This document shows, in pieces, positions 14,966 through 42,684 of a DNA stretch of 64,000 nt. Each line of letters opens with the position of its first letter. The stretch's first letter is position 1. The notes under the pieces were generated by a model. It saw only the letters and a list, made by a program, of their open reading frames with translations. It was not told the DNA's origin and made no database searches. The position numbers and the translations under genes are program-made. This DNA comes from Qipengyuania xiapuensis (GTDB lineage Bacteria; Pseudomonadota; Alphaproteobacteria; Sphingomonadales; Sphingomonadaceae), in the NCBI RefSeq assembly GCF_019711395.1, contig NZ_JAIGNL010000001.1:186001-250000 (forward strand), written 5' to 3'.

Positions 14966-14990
14966 CACACCCGTGCATCGGGCGGGTGTG
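14966..14990. repeat. Inverted repeat linking the pre-tRNA leader to the tRNA-Leu 5' end
   Basis: CACACCCG (14966-14973) is exactly complementary to CGGGTGTG (14983-14990), which is part of the tRNA acceptor stem and first connector bases, with a 9-base loop. In the precursor the leader could mask the 5' strand of the acceptor stem until RNase P or refolding acts. Confidence 0.4.
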
Positions 14991-15066
14991 GCGGAATGGT
15001 AGACGCCGGGGACTTAAAATCCCCTGTCCCTTGGACGTGTGGGTTCGAGTCCCACCACCCGCACCA
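14982..15066 (+). tRNA. tRNA-Leu (anticodon UAA)
   Basis: The cloverleaf can be drawn by eye. The acceptor stem pairs GCGGGTG with CACCCGC, and discriminator A is followed by an encoded CCA. The anticodon stem is GGGGA/TCCCC around loop CTTAAAA, giving anticodon TAA at 15015-15017. The variable arm is long, as in class II tRNAs (TGTCCCTTGGACG), and the T-arm is GTGGG-TTCGAGT-CCCAC. The length of 85 is typical for tRNA-Leu. It reads UUA (and UUG by wobble), rare codons in this GC-rich genome. Confidence 0.97.
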
Positions 15067-37243: not shown

Positions 37244-38917
37244 ATGTTCAAGACCGAGCCACCCGCTGCCGCGCCGATTGCAAGCCTCGACCGGCGCAGC
37301 CTGCTCAAGGGAGGCGTGCTGGGCGCCGGAGCGCTGTCCGCGCCGCTTTCGGCGCAAATGGCATCGGGCAAGACCGGCTTCACGCACGGCGTGGCCAGCG
37401 GCGAGCCGGGCGTCGACAAGGTCCTCCTGTGGACCCGCTATGTCGCCGACCAGTCCCTCGCGCTCGAATGGCAGGTGTCCGAAACGGCTGATTTCGCATC
37501 GACGGTCGCCGGCGGCAGCGCGCTCCCTCGCGCCGAGAACGACTGGTGCGCCAAGTCGTGGGCCGACGGCCTCAGGGCCGGCACCTGGTACTACTACCGC
37601 TTCATCGCGCCTGACGGGACGGTCTCCGATATCGGCCGCACGCGAACGCTTCCCGAAGGACCGACCGCGCGGTGGCGGATGGCGGTTTTCTCCTGCTCGA
37701 ACATCGGCTTCGGCTGGTTCAACGCCTACGCCCACGCGGCCGAGGCGAACGAGTTCGACTGCACGCTCCACCTCGGCGACTACTTTTACGAGTATCCGCA
37801 AGGCACCTATCCGAGCGAGCGCGAGACGCTTCCCGGCCGCGCCCCGCTCGACCCGCAGGGCGAGACCGTTGCGCTGGCAGAGTACCGCGCACGCTACGCG
37901 ACCTACCGGGCGGACAAGGATCTCCAGCGCATCCACCAGCTCTACCCGATGATCTCCGGCTGGGACGATCACGAGAGCTCCAACGACAGCTGGGAGGGCG
38001 GCGCGCAGAACCACCAGCCCGAGACCGAAGGCAGCTGGTCGGTGCGCAAGGCTGCGGCGATGAAGGCCTACCGCGAATGGATGCCCGTCTCCGATCGGCC
38101 CTGGGAGACCTACGAGATCGGCGATCTCGCCACTCTCTACCGGCTCGAAACGCGCCTGAGCGCGCGGGCGCAGCAGTTCGATTACGGCTCGCTGCTGCGC
38201 GGCATGGCTTCGCAGGAAGAAGGCATCGCGCGGCTCACCGCCTTCCGGAATGGAGACTATCTCGATCCGACGCGTGAGGTGCTCGGAAGCGACCAGCAGG
38301 CATGGCTGGCAGAAGGCCTCAAGGCCTCGCGCCGTGCCGGCAAGACATGGCAGGTGCTCGTCCAGCAGGTGCTGATGGGCAAGGTCGCCTCGGCCACTTC
38401 GCTTACGGATACCCTGCCCGAGGGCCTTCCCGATTTCGTCCGGCAGCGTGTCATCTCGGGTGCCATGGCGAGCCGCGCGGAGCTGCCGCTGAACATGGAC
38501 GCATGGGACGGCTATCCCGCCGCCCGCGCAAGGCTTTACGAGGCGGCACTGGCTGCCGATGCGAACCTCATCAGCCTGGCCGGGGACACGCACAATGCCT
38601 GGGCCTTCGATCTCGCCCATGATGGCGAGGCAGCCGGCGTCGAGTTCGGCGTACAGGGCGTGACCTCGCCCGGCCTCGAAAACTTCCTGCCGCAGCTGGC
38701 ACCTGAAGACATCGCCCGCGCCCTCGTCGCGCGCAATCCGGAGCTCAAGTGGATGGATGCCTCGCGCCGCGGTTACATGGCGGTCGAACTGACCCCGGGC
38801 AGTGCCAGCAGCGAGTTCCGCTTCCTCTCCAGCGTGCGCGAAAAGGGCGCCGGTGTCGTGGCGACCCGGCGAGTAACGACGCTCGCCGGTGCGCGTACGC
38901 TTGATGCTATCGGATAG
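37244..38917 (+). CDS. phoD: Alkaline phosphatase D (PhoD-like), Tat-exported
   Basis: A 557-residue periplasmic phosphatase/phosphodiesterase that releases phosphate from organic esters, normally with Ca and Fe. A twin-arginine signal is present (LDRRSLLKGGVLGAGALSA). Family motifs follow: THGVASGEPGVDKVLLWTRY, FSCSNIGFGWFNAYAHAAE, HLGDYFYEYPQG, ISGWDDHESSNDSWE and LAGDTHNAWAFDL. The ATG is preceded by GGAGAG. A Pho box in the promoter supports control by the PhoR-PhoB system. It is divergent from the XRE operon and followed by the thrS leader. Confidence 0.93.
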   Translation: MFKTEPPAAAPIASLDRRSLLKGGVLGAGALSAPLSAQMASGKTGFTHGVASGEPGVDKVLLWTRYVADQSLALEWQVSETADFASTVAGGSALPRAENDWCAKSWADGLRAGTWYYYRFIAPDGTVSDIGRTRTLPEGPTARWRMAVFSCSNIGFGWFNAYAHAAEANEFDCTLHLGDYFYEYPQGTYPSERETLPGRAPLDPQGETVALAEYRARYATYRADKDLQRIHQLYPMISGWDDHESSNDSWEGGAQNHQPETEGSWSVRKAAAMKAYREWMPVSDRPWETYEIGDLATLYRLETRLSARAQQFDYGSLLRGMASQEEGIARLTAFRNGDYLDPTREVLGSDQQAWLAEGLKASRRAGKTWQVLVQQVLMGKVASATSLTDTLPEGLPDFVRQRVISGAMASRAELPLNMDAWDGYPAARARLYEAALAADANLISLAGDTHNAWAFDLAHDGEAAGVEFGVQGVTSPGLENFLPQLAPEDIARALVARNPELKWMDASRRGYMAVELTPGSASSEFRFLSSVREKGAGVVATRRVTTLAGARTLDAIG

Positions 38918-38924
38918 GGACGGG

Positions 38925-38953
38925 TTGAGAAATTAACCCCTCGCCGCTATCTG
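38925..38953 (+). promoter_or_regulatory. Promoter of the thrS leader transcript
   Basis: TTGAGA (38925-38930) and TATCTG (38948-38953) are spaced by 17 bases, a good sigma-70-type pair. The predicted start, about 7 bases after the -10 box, falls at 38960-38961, the leader-peptide ATG itself, so the transcript may be leaderless. Confidence 0.5.
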
Positions 38954-38960
38954 GTGGGGC

Positions 38961-39032
38961 ATGACGCAGGCACGCATCACGACCACTACTACCACCACCT
39001 CGGGCAACCGGGGGCGGGTAGTCGCGGACTGA
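38961..39032 (+). CDS. Threonine-rich leader peptide upstream of thrS
   Basis: A 23-codon ORF from ATG 38961 to TGA 39030. Eight of 23 residues are Thr; residues 7-13 are seven consecutive Thr (codons ACG ACC ACT ACT ACC ACC ACC). It begins MTQARI and ends NRGRVVAD. A run of codons for the amino acid charged by the downstream synthetase is the hallmark of a ribosome-stalling attenuator leader, as in thrL of enteric bacteria. GGTGGGG lies directly before the ATG, too close for normal Shine-Dalgarno use, which fits a leaderless start. Ends 124 bases before thrS. Confidence 0.75.
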   Translation: MTQARITTTTTTTSGNRGRVVAD

Positions 39033-39063
39033 CGCGAGCTGCCGCCACCCGGTTTCGGGTGGC
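39007..39063 (+). promoter_or_regulatory. Attenuator with two mutually exclusive stems before thrS
   Basis: Segment ACCGGGGGCGG (39007-39017, inside the leader ORF) can pair with CCGCCACCCGGT (39042-39053) by 11 bp with one bulged A. The latter segment can instead form GCCACCCG/CGGGTGGC (39044-39051, 39056-39063), an 8-bp hairpin with GTTT loop. A ribosome at the leader stop (39030) would cover the first segment and free the hairpin; a ribosome stalled on early Thr codons would leave the first segment free. No strong T-run follows the hairpin (AGGCGTTCCTCCC), so the output may be weak termination or another mechanism. Confidence 0.6.
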
Positions 39064-39156
39064 AGGCGTTCCTCCCGAAATCGAATTTCTCCCAAAACGC
39101 CGCTTCAAGCGCGCGCCTACCTGTGCCATGGGCGCGGCAACGTAACGGATGAGACG

Positions 39157-41187
39157 ATGACGGAACTTCTCAAGATCAGCCTGCCCGACGGTTCGGTGCG
39201 CGAAATGGAACCCGGCAGCACGCCCGCCGATGTCGCCGCAGCGATCGGCCCGGGCCTTGCCAAGGCCGCCATTGCCGCGCGTGTCGACGGCGAGCTGCGC
39301 GATATCAACCGCCCCTTCGAAGGCGATGCCGAACTTGCGCTGGTCACGAGCCGTGACGAGGAAGACGCGCTCGAACTGGCGCGCCACGACTTTGCGCACG
39401 TGCTCGCAGAAGCCGTTCAGTCGCTCTTCCCCGGCACGCAGATCACCTTCGGTCCGGCGACGGACGATGGCTTCTATTATGACGTGAAGGCTCCCGATAC
39501 GCGCGAGCCGTTCTCCATGGACGACCTCCCCGCGATCGAGGAGGAAATGCGCCGCATCATCAAGGCCGACAAGCCGCTTCGCCGCGAGGTCTGGAGCCGC
39601 CAGCAGCTGATCGACAAGTGGGAAGCCGAGGGCGAGGTCTTCAAGGCCGAGTGGGCCAAGGAGCTGCCCGAGGACGAGGAGCTCACGGTCTACTGGTCGG
39701 GCGAAGACTGGCTCGACATGTGCCGCGGCCCGCACCTTGCCTCGACGGGCAAGCTCGATCCGCAGGCCTTCAAGCTGATGCGCGTCGCCGGTGCCTACTG
39801 GCGCGGCGACCAGAAGAACGCGCAGCTCACGCGTATCTACGGCACCGGCTGGCTCAACAAGAAGCAGCTCAATGCGCATCTCACGCGGCTGGAAGAGGCC
39901 GCCAAGCGCGACCACCGCAAGCTGGGCCGCGAGATGGACCTGTTCCACCTGCAGGAAGAGGCGCATGGCAGCGTTTTCTGGCATCCGAACGGCTATCGCA
40001 TCTGGCGCGAGCTGGAGGCCTATATGCGCCGCAAGATGGACGGTGCGGGCTACCAGGAAATCAAGACGCCGCAGCTGATGGACGTGCGCCAGTGGGAGCA
40101 GTCGGGCCACTGGGGCAAGTATGCCGAGAACATGTTCGCCGTGCCGGACATCGTCCCCGAGGTCGAAGGACTGGGCGACGACAATGACGGCAAGGGAGCC
40201 AATCCCAAGGTCGCCGACGACAGCGACTGGATGGCGATCAAGCCGATGAACTGCCCGGCCCACGTGCTGGTCTTCAAGCAGGGCATCACGTCCTATCGTG
40301 ACCTGCCGATCCGCCTTGGCGAGATGGGCTGCTGCCACCGCAACGAACCGCATGGTGCGCTTCACGGCCTGATGCGCGTGCGCCAGTTCACGCAGGACGA
40401 TGCGCATATCTTCTGCACCGAGGAGCAGGTCGTCGACGAGGTCCGCGCTTTCTGCAAGCTGGCCGACGAAGTCTATCGCGACTTCGGCTTCAGCTACCAC
40501 GTGAAGCTCGCGCTGCGCCCCGAAAAGCGCTTCGGCAGCGAGGCTGACTGGGACAAGGCGGAGCAGGAACTGCGCGACGCCGTGGCCGAGGCCGGCATGG
40601 CCAACGAGGACTACGGCTGGGAAGAGCTTCCTGGCGAAGGCGCCTTCTACGCGCCCAAGCTCGAATGGCACCTCACCGATGCGATCGGCCGCACCTGGCA
40701 GGTCGGCACGATCCAGGGCGACCGCGTGCTGCCCGAACGTCTCGATGCGACCTATGTCGGCGAAGACGGCGAGAAGCACCGCCCGGTCATGCTGCACCGC
40801 GCGATCTTCGGTTCCTACGAGCGCTTCATCGGTATCCTGATCGAGCACTTCGCCGGACGCCTGCCCTGCTGGCTCGCGCCGACGCAGGCGGTGGTCGCGA
40901 CCATCGTCTCGGACGCAGACGACTATGCCAAGGAAGCGGTGGCCAAGCTGGAAGCTGCCGGAATCCGCGTGGAAAGCGATCTTCGCAACGAGAAGATCAA
41001 CTACAAGGTCCGCGAACACAGCCACGCCAAGGTTCCGCACCTGCTGGTGGTCGGCATGCGCGAGGCCGAGGAAGGCACGGTCGCCGTGCGCACGCTCGGC
41101 CAGCAGCACCAGAAGGTGATGCCTCTGGAAGAAGCGATCGCGATGCTGAAGACCGAGGCGACTCCGCCGGACCTTCGCGAAGGCTAA
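39157..41187 (+). CDS. thrS: Threonyl-tRNA synthetase
   Basis: A 676-residue class II synthetase that charges tRNA-Thr. Domains in order are TGS (about 1-65; KISLPDGSVREMEPGSTPAD), the editing domain with HDFAHVLAEAVQSLFP and CRGPHLASTGK, the catalytic core (motif 2 CCHRNEPHGALHGLMRVR near 390; zinc ligands include the Cys of MNCPAHVLVFKQ), and the anticodon domain (about 565-670; HSHAKVPHLLVVGMREAE). Slightly longer than E. coli ThrRS (642). ATG 39157 has GGATGAG upstream. Expression is probably set by the Thr leader/attenuator immediately upstream. Confidence 0.97.
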   Translation: MTELLKISLPDGSVREMEPGSTPADVAAAIGPGLAKAAIAARVDGELRDINRPFEGDAELALVTSRDEEDALELARHDFAHVLAEAVQSLFPGTQITFGPATDDGFYYDVKAPDTREPFSMDDLPAIEEEMRRIIKADKPLRREVWSRQQLIDKWEAEGEVFKAEWAKELPEDEELTVYWSGEDWLDMCRGPHLASTGKLDPQAFKLMRVAGAYWRGDQKNAQLTRIYGTGWLNKKQLNAHLTRLEEAAKRDHRKLGREMDLFHLQEEAHGSVFWHPNGYRIWRELEAYMRRKMDGAGYQEIKTPQLMDVRQWEQSGHWGKYAENMFAVPDIVPEVEGLGDDNDGKGANPKVADDSDWMAIKPMNCPAHVLVFKQGITSYRDLPIRLGEMGCCHRNEPHGALHGLMRVRQFTQDDAHIFCTEEQVVDEVRAFCKLADEVYRDFGFSYHVKLALRPEKRFGSEADWDKAEQELRDAVAEAGMANEDYGWEELPGEGAFYAPKLEWHLTDAIGRTWQVGTIQGDRVLPERLDATYVGEDGEKHRPVMLHRAIFGSYERFIGILIEHFAGRLPCWLAPTQAVVATIVSDADDYAKEAVAKLEAAGIRVESDLRNEKINYKVREHSHAKVPHLLVVGMREAEEGTVAVRTLGQQHQKVMPLEEAIAMLKTEATPPDLREG

Positions 41188-41196
41188 GCGCGCGCG

Positions 41197-41943
41197 ATGG
41201 AGCTGCTTGCTGGTTACGGCTCGGCGGCGCTCGTCGCCGCGCTGCTGGCCGCTTTCGGCTCGGCCTTCGTTCGCGGACTGACCGGCTTCGGCATGGCAAT
41301 CCTGCTGGTGCCGGTGCTTGCGCTGGCACTCTCACCGCTCGATGCCGTCCTGCTGACGAACTTCCTCTCGGTCTTCATCGGCCTGTCTGAGATCCGGCGC
41401 CTGCTGCGGGGTGCCGAACGCTCGGCATGGGTGATCATCGTGCTGGTGGCGCTCACCACTCCGGTCGGCCTCTACCTGCTCAGCGTGACCAGCCCCGCCC
41501 TCGCGCGGGTGGTGATCGCTTTCATCGCGCTCTCGGCATTCCTCGCCATCCTGCTCCCGCGCCGCGGCGCGCTGGACCACCATCCGGCGACCACCGGGAG
41601 CGTTGGCGTGATGAGCGGGCTGATGACGGGTTATGCCGGAATGCCCGGACCGCCGGTGGTGCCCTATTACGTCGGGCGCGACATCCCGCGCGAGACCGCC
41701 AAGGCATCGATGCTGCTGATCTTCACCTGCGCCTCCACGACAGGGCTGGTGAGCGGCGCAGCGCTCGGCGTGCTCGAAGCGACGCTCGTGCTGCTCGCCG
41801 TCCTGCTGTTCCCAGCCGTGCTGCTCGGCAATTGGCTGGGCAACAAGGCGTCTGGCAGGATTGCCGACAGGACCTGGCGTATCTGCGTTGGTCTGGTGCT
41901 GGGTGCGGCAGCGGTCGCGGCGCTCGTGAAGGCGCTCGGCTAG
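41197..41943 (+). CDS. Sulfite exporter TauE/SafE family protein (copy 1)
   Basis: A 248-residue membrane protein with seven or eight helices and the TauE/SafE signature near the N-terminus (FGSAFVRGLTGFGMAILLVP) and mid-protein (GLMTGYAGMPGPPVVPYYVG). The family moves sulfite, sulfoacetate and other anions across the inner membrane. It starts 9 bases after thrS and ends directly against a second family member, so the two may work as a pair. Substrate unknown. Confidence 0.87.
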   Translation: MELLAGYGSAALVAALLAAFGSAFVRGLTGFGMAILLVPVLALALSPLDAVLLTNFLSVFIGLSEIRRLLRGAERSAWVIIVLVALTTPVGLYLLSVTSPALARVVIAFIALSAFLAILLPRRGALDHHPATTGSVGVMSGLMTGYAGMPGPPVVPYYVGRDIPRETAKASMLLIFTCASTTGLVSGAALGVLEATLVLLAVLLFPAVLLGNWLGNKASGRIADRTWRICVGLVLGAAAVAALVKALG

Positions 41944-42684
41944 ATGCTCGGACTGCCCCTTGAAGCGATCGCCATCGCGCTGCTCACTGCGCTTGCGGCG
42001 GGTTTCGTACGCGGGCTGGCGGGCTTCGGCCTGTCGGTCGTGATCGTGCCGGTGCTCGCGCTCACTATCGCGCCGAAAGAGGCGGTGCTGGTCGGCAATA
42101 TCTCGCTGTTCCTCATCGGATTGACCGACATAGGGCGCATCCGCCGAGATGCCGATCGCTCGGCGATTCCGATCACGCTCCTCGCGCTCGCCTGCATGCC
42201 GATCGGCCTCTGGGCGCTGGTGACGCTGAGCGCCGACTGGGCGCGCCTCCTCATCGCGATGGTCTCGCTCGGAGCGTTCGTGCTGGTGGTCGTCCCGCTC
42301 GGCAAGGTGGCCATGCCGCGCAAGCCCGCGATGGGCCTCTCGGGCTTCTTCACCGGCTTCTTCGGCGGTTTTGCGGGCATGCCGGGCCCGGGCATGGCGC
42401 CGTTCTACCTGCGAGGACGGCTCGAGCCGCGCGCGGCGCGTGCCTCGATGATGGCGATTTTCCTGGTGCTGACACCGCTGTCCTCGCTGCTTTTCATCCT
42501 GCTCGGCGTGGGAGGCATGCGCGAGGTACTACTTGCCCTGCTGCTTTTTCCTGCGGTCCTCGTCGGCGATCTCTTCGGCCATGCCGCTTTCGGCCGTGTC
42601 AGTGCGCGCCAGTGGCAGGTCTCGGTCGCGCTGGTCCTGGGCGGTGCAGCAGCGGGCGCGCTCTACAAACTGTTGGAAGGGTAG
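41944..42684 (+). CDS. Sulfite exporter TauE/SafE family protein (copy 2)
   Basis: A 246-residue paralogue of the preceding protein with the same two signature regions (AAGFVRGLAGFGLSVVIVPVL and FFGGFAGMPGPGMAPFYLRG). Its ATG follows the TAG of copy 1 without a gap. Sequences of the two copies differ clearly, so the duplication is old; a heteromeric transporter or two substrates are both possible. Confidence 0.87.
   Translation: MLGLPLEAIAIALLTALAAGFVRGLAGFGLSVVIVPVLALTIAPKEAVLVGNISLFLIGLTDIGRIRRDADRSAIPITLLALACMPIGLWALVTLSADWARLLIAMVSLGAFVLVVVPLGKVAMPRKPAMGLSGFFTGFFGGFAGMPGPGMAPFYLRGRLEPRAARASMMAIFLVLTPLSSLLFILLGVGGMREVLLALLLFPAVLVGDLFGHAAFGRVSARQWQVSVALVLGGAAAGALYKLLEG

Follow-up and report, generated by a model that had tools for sequence, protein, structure and literature searches.

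A threonine-run leader peptide and competing RNA helices upstream of thrS in Sphingomonadaceae: a probable ribosome-mediated attenuator without a U-tract

Known control of thrS and leader-peptide attenuation of synthetase genes

The T-box of Firmicutes senses tRNA directly, and the control of thrS in Escherichia coli relies on the binding of threonyl-tRNA synthetase (ThrRS). To our knowledge, neither the T-box nor the E. coli ThrRS operator uses a leader peptide. Leader-peptide control is known or predicted for other synthetase genes, and the passages of two papers considered here name leuS and trpS in Streptomyces (PMC1262725), hisS in bacilli (PMC2965389), and pheST in gamma-proteobacteria (PMC1262725, PMC2965389). 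No thrS leader peptide is named in those passages, and the literature searched holds no earlier report of thrS leader-peptide attenuation, the likeliest comparative-genomics work lying outside its scope. Among the Alphaproteobacteria, the trpL transcript of Sinorhizobium meliloti starts at the leader ATG, and is thus leaderless (PMC7298713).

The locus described here belongs to Qipengyuania xiapuensis, and the whole stretch of DNA analysed, of 64,000 nt, is referred to as the window. Its thrS gene is probably preceded by a ribosome-mediated transcription attenuator, which would adjust the expression of the gene to the amount of charged tRNA-Thr available. An attenuator had been proposed in the initial annotation of this DNA: the Thr leader and the exclusive helices of that proposal hold, with two qualifications, namely that 3:4, the putative terminator helix, has no U-tract and is not canonical, and that a second promoter-like element, P2, may supply some thrS transcripts free of attenuation. 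The following features frame the region:

38925-38953, + strand: predicted promoter P1 (-35 TTGAGA at 38925-38930, 17-nt spacer, -10 TATCTG at 38948-38953)
38961-39032, + strand: leader peptide ORF of 23 codons, with Thr codons 7-13 at 38979-38999
39157-41187, + strand: thrS, threonine--tRNA ligase (Pfam TGS, tRNA_SAD, tRNA-synt_2b, and HGTP_anticodon; TIGR00418, E 4.5e-191)

The leader ORF and its threonine run

The leader ORF (38961-39032) translates as MTQARITTTTTTTSGNRGRVVAD*, holds seven consecutive Thr codons, and lies 124 nt before thrS. The upstream gene, encoding a PhoD-like phosphatase, ends at 38917, and the entire regulatory region is contained in a 239-nt gap. Among the 275 short ATG ORFs of the window (132 on the + strand and 143 on the - strand), the leader ORF alone reaches at least five Thr per nine residues, and an ATG followed by six Thr codons has a single match in the whole 2.7-Mb genome, which is the leader ORF itself. 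The 23-codon ORF with seven straight Thr codons before thrS, as first annotated, is therefore confirmed by its translation and by its uniqueness in both the window and the genome.

The comparison with relatives covers 80 named thrS loci and a search of 99 related genomes, to which further upstream regions were added. The Thr run that the initial annotation expected upstream of thrS in relatives is indeed found there, with a Thr-run leader at most 400 nt upstream of the gene in 49 of the 80 named loci, against a background rate of 0.003 per 400 nt. Altogether, the leader is present at 96 of the loci read out, which represent 93 distinct sequences. Peptide length ranges from 17 to 25 codons over the 93 loci, with length differences of whole codons. 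Loci with the leader follow the pattern M...TTTTTTT(P/S)xxRGRxVA, and the peptide is highly variable outside the Thr run and RGR. The run itself is encoded by all four Thr codons (ACC 389, ACG 142, ACT 133, and ACA 29 over the 93 loci), and its alignment exhibits variable third codon positions, with hardly any variation in the first two. This third-position variation with Thr kept argues for an ORF that is translated and selected as protein rather than DNA, as expected from selection for the amino acid Thr.

Competing helices

From the end of the Thr run onwards, and partly within the leader ORF, the following segments are predicted to pair in alternative ways:

38998-39003, + strand: segment 1, pairing with segment 2 (protector hairpin; swap test z -2.4)
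39008-39017, + strand: segment 2, CCGGGGGCGG, encoding the conserved RGR (2:3 swap test z -4.2 to -5.1, plus pair counts)
39042-39052, + strand: segment 3, CCGCCACCCGG, pairing with segment 2 (antiterminator) or, through 39044-39051, with segment 4
39056-39063, + strand: segment 4, pairing with 39044-39051 into hairpin 3:4, the putative terminator (z about -4.8 to -4.9 in the swap test)
39065-39070, + strand: segment 4b, GGCGTT, pairing with segment 6 (swap test z -11.3)
39074-39083, + strand: segment 5, CCCGAAATCG, pairing with 39051-39059, i.e., the loop and the 5' part of segment 4 (swap test z -8.3)
39096-39101, + strand: segment 6, AACGCC, pairing with segment 4b (swap test z -11.3)

In the swap test, each segment is paired with the partner from its own species and with those from other species, using up to 80 sequences of less than 95% identity. 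Pairing is better within species for 1:2, 2:3, 3:4, 4:5, 4b:6, and 6:7 (the latter with z -6.6), while none of the seven control combinations of the same segments (1:3, 2:4, 3:5, 4:6, 5:7, 5:6, and 2:5) shows any gain. The controls were built from this same set of relatives, and the support for the helices therefore cannot be attributed to kinship only.

Pair counts show compensatory changes in individual stems. In 3:4, formed by GCCACCCG/CGGGTGGC (39044-39051 with 39056-39063), one pair changes from G-C to A-U on both sides in 11 sequences, and one pair of 4b:6 changes from C-G to U-A in 13 of 38 sequences. For 4:5, 12 cells are changed on both sides, a count reached by none of 500 shuffles. 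Variants of these stems include GGTTCCGGG/CCCGGAACC for 4:5 in L076, GGCGT/ACGCC versus GGTGT/ACACC for 4b:6, and a 4b:6 stem swapped for GCGCC/GGCGC in L007, L010, and L052. Single-sequence folding against shuffles gives -34.8 kcal/mol with z -3.3 for the 2:3 region, and z -4.3 for the 3:4 region.

The Thr leader and the alternative folds are, hence, real and far beyond chance, and covariation strongly supports the mutually exclusive helices 1:2, 2:3, and 3:4. The initial reading of 2:3 and 3:4 as alternative helices was right according to the swap test, the pair counts, and folds beyond shuffles, and the compensatory changes that it anticipated in the stems of relatives are found for both. 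That inventory held 2:3 and 3:4, and missed segment 1, segment 5, 4b:6, the probably leaderless start, the absent U-tract, and the P2-like element.

Two further pairings were considered and set aside. An extension of the 3:4 stem into segment 4b, which appears in the single-sequence fold, was rejected because the corresponding swap test gives z +1.3 (3ext:4b), while 4b:6 is the best supported helix. Pairings 6:7 and 7:8 could extend a relay up to the start of thrS, but this is not claimed, as 6:7, although covarying, overlaps P2. Four loci (L006, L101, L156, and L162) carry a palindromic insertion of about 100 nt in the 4b:6 loop, with both arms retained.

Predicted promoter P1 and promoter-like element P2

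The predicted start of P1 falls on or adjoins the leader ATG. In an ungapped alignment of the 93 loci anchored at this ATG, TTGA at -36 and TA at -13 are fixed; the -35/-10 spacing is identical in 65 of the 93 loci, and one nt shorter in three more. Since the start lies on or next to the ATG and an SD-like tetramer precedes the leader ORF in only 4 of the 93 loci, the leader ORF is probably leaderless. A second element lies between the helices and thrS:

39103-39131, + strand: promoter-like element P2 (CTTCAA, 17-nt spacer, CCATGG)

The P2-like pair with the exact 17-nt spacer is found in 65 of the 93 leader loci and in 7 of 30 loci that have no leader nearby, compared to 0.3-0.6% in shuffles. 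With a 16-nt spacer it is found in none of the 93 loci, and with an 18-nt spacer in three. This element resembles another, older promoter; its transcripts would bypass the attenuator, so that a portion of thrS mRNA may escape the switch. According to the initial annotation, attenuation would be refuted by a transcription start of thrS 3' of 39032; such a transcript may exist while the switch keeps its role on P1 transcripts. Among loci without a nearby leader, L069, L074, L078, L009, and L014-L016 appear to carry a -10-like element some 10 nt upstream of the thrS ATG, and their thrS mRNA is possibly leaderless.

Ribosome position and the putative termination step

The region was folded with a ribosome whose leading edge was assumed, in keeping with general knowledge of its footprint, to lie 12 nt beyond the first base of the A-site codon. 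With the ribosome on the middle Thr codon, these in silico folds contain 2:3 in 80% of the sequences and 3:4 in 12%; with the ribosome at the stop codon, 3:4 is found in 94% and 2:3 in 0%. In L283 and L007, 3:4 is not the best structure of the predicted post-stop fold. In the model, ribosome position would thus select the fold. At the leader stop of this locus, the ribosome should presumably reach about 39042, immediately before the 3:4 hairpin. The edge just before the second hairpin, as initially described, therefore agrees with the usual footprint.

However, the last step departs from the standard intrinsic terminator, as no U-tract is found 3' of the 3:4 stem (none of the 93 sequences has at least five T in eight positions), and termination at 3:4 is putative. 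In the 60 kb of the window scanned, patterns of canonical terminators are no more frequent than in shuffles. Rho or another factor may be needed for termination at 3:4, and the stretch between 4b and 6, C-rich and G-poor (36% C, 14% G) within a GC-rich genome, leaves room for Rho. Helix 4:5 was also considered as the true terminator, since it is followed by slightly more T (12 of the 93 sequences with at least five), but it was rejected because it would shut thrS off under starvation.

Distribution and evolution

A covariance model built on this region matches the present genome once and, across the family, one site per genome in 139 of 398 genomes, which represent 36 of 96 genera; the matches whose position was checked precede thrS. 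Twenty divergent matches were read out, of which 19 precede thrS with a Thr ORF, and the weakest alone has none (L211, E 5e-4, taken as chance or decay). The model finds nothing convincing in 385 genomes outside the family, where two matches (L224 and L225, E about 0.006-0.01 each) are taken as chance, and a scan of viral contigs with the segment 1-2 pattern gave no match.

Among 60 family genomes without a model match, two of one genus (g104) hold a Thr leader with fully rewired stems, and the remainder mostly have no Thr leader. Stems are likewise rewired in L060, from Sphingomonas. In these three loci (L060, and L250 and L283 of g104), the stems are replaced and the 2:3 alternative still forms; L250 and L283 were missed by the covariance model. 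The presence of the attenuator is patchy, with at least 11 state changes forced on the ThrRS tree, which suggests that this control of thrS is dispensable. As the copies are homologous, repeated loss appears to be the likelier reading of this pattern.

Forty upstream regions from other alphaproteobacterial families were also examined, and one of them pointed to a case that its relatives bear out, in family f72. There, a Thr leader ORF precedes thrS in 6 of 8 loci (L328 and L330-L334), and in five loci the leader is followed by a GC hairpin and then TTTTTT. This is a textbook attenuator, probably of independent origin. A Thr-run ORF about 370 nt before thrS in a single genome of family f58 (L306/L346, TATTTTTATGG) is not found in relatives and was discarded. 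The Thr ORF of L293 looks weak.

Genes around thrS

In L007, L010, and L052, about 700 nt separate the leader from thrS, with one gene in between (L007:2281-3000, L010:2296-3000, and L052:2265-3000). Gaps of roughly 570-590 nt in a similar arrangement were noted in five other genomes (G104, G158, G198, G259, and G307), comparing the positions of model matches and thrS by eye. A gene between the attenuator and thrS favours operon-level control of transcription over local control of thrS translation, which suggests that the control acts on transcription, through the operon. For L007, L010, and L052, the sequences suggest an exonuclease-thrS operon under Thr control. The intervening gene of L010 encodes 168 aa, with a weak, sub-threshold NCBIfam match to RNase AS and no match in Pfam.

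Directly after thrS, the window holds two adjacent genes for TauE/SafE-type exporters (41197-42684, + strand); infC is not located 3' of thrS here, unlike in E. coli. The only Rfam match of the window at the gathering threshold is a tRNA gene (14982-15063, + strand).

Proposed mechanism and alternative explanations

The analysis shows that the Thr leader is conserved, that the exclusive helices covary, and that, in silico, the fold depends on where the ribosome stands; stalling in the leader, termination at 3:4, and the direction of the response are inferred. Transcription from P1 would begin at the leader ATG or beside it. The ribosome translating the Thr-run peptide would, if Thr-tRNA is scarce, stall in the Thr run and cover segment 1, so that 2:3 forms, 4:5 is able to form behind it, and 3:4 is blocked; RNA polymerase would then continue into thrS. 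With an ample supply of Thr-tRNA, the ribosome would instead reach the stop codon and block 2:3, upon which 3:4 and 4b:6 would form and transcription would mostly end. Given that there is no U-tract, termination at 3:4 is probably aided by Rho or another factor.

A version of this leader switch that differs in the last step, with Rho terminating transcription, could well be the one at work, even if we stop short of calling it probable. In the off state, 3:4 and 4b:6 would free the C-rich, G-poor stretch after segment 4 and load Rho, while in the on state 2:3 and 4:5 would hide segment 5, and Rho could not load. It would account for the missing U-tract (0 of 93), for the base composition between 4b and 6 (36% C, 14% G), for canonical terminator patterns that do not exceed shuffles in the window, and for the strong covariation of 4:5, a helix unneeded in a simple four-segment attenuator. 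However, the free stretch spans only about 26 nt, which is short for a rut site, and a non-canonical intrinsic hairpin or one aided by NusA/NusG would fit too. A broader formulation, which we put forward tentatively and regard as possible rather than probable, is that a helix chain (2:3 and 4:5 versus 1:2, 3:4, and 4b:6) relays the position of a leaderless ribosome to Rho-type or non-canonical termination, family-wide and with no U-tract. We know of no leader-peptide attenuation of this relayed, U-tract-less kind for any synthetase gene.

Explanations other than termination fare worse. The helices could exert a post-transcriptional effect, through mRNA stability or the translation of the next gene, which would also agree with the lack of a U-tract and with the end of helix 4b:6 near the SD of the intervening gene in L010; this is unlikely, as the helix chain of the window ends about 55 nt before thrS, and an entire gene separates both in L007, L010, and L052. 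It is very unlikely that most thrS mRNA comes from P2 while the RNA and peptide made from P1 have a chiefly trans-acting role, as with rnTrpL/peTrpL in Sinorhizobium: a P2-like element is present and the leaderless leader resembles rnTrpL (PMC7298713), but the attenuator element remains tied to thrS and the peptide varies widely beyond the Thr run and RGR. An operator bound by ThrRS is scarcely credible, despite the conserved RNA immediately before thrS and the autoregulation of E. coli thrS in this manner, which is generally known and mentioned in PMC2965389. That conserved region has a promoter-like fixed 17-nt spacing and occurs also without the leader, and an operator gives no role to a run in which Thr is conserved while its codons vary.

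Comparison with known attenuators

Like the trp, his, and thr attenuators (the last being RF00506 Thr_leader, of thrABC), the attenuator proposed here has a leader rich in the regulatory amino acid and alternative antiterminator and terminator helices, between which ribosome position decides. Unlike them, it controls thrS instead of biosynthesis, has no U-tract, and holds the extra covarying helices 4:5 and 4b:6. The Rfam model RF00506 scores the region at 14.9 bits, below its gathering threshold of 55. Most likely, the thrS switch works like the trp attenuator minus one defining feature, the U-tract terminator, which was looked for and not found.

With the pheST, leuS, trpS, and hisS attenuators it would share a synthetase gene governed by stalling on its own amino acid; these concern other synthetases and are described with intrinsic terminators. 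The trpL attenuator of S. meliloti also belongs to an alphaproteobacterium and has a leaderless leader, a trait that is predicted here; however, it serves Trp biosynthesis, and its termination yields a trans-acting small RNA (PMC7298713).

The Firmicutes T-box and the E. coli ThrRS operator act on the same gene, thrS, and on the same signal. None of the T-box families of Rfam reaches its gathering threshold anywhere in the window. If the proposed mechanism is true, it would be a third mode of thrS control after these two, and such a synthetase switch would be common in a large family of free-living alphaproteobacteria, offering more than 100 natural variants for studying U-tract-less attenuation in GC-rich bacteria. 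The thrS attenuator of family f72 (L330-L334) likewise has a Thr leader before thrS and alternative pairing; it differs in its canonical hairpin followed by TTTTTT, and no sequence similarity was noticed. This apparently independent leader with a canonical terminator suggests that the solution arose more than once.
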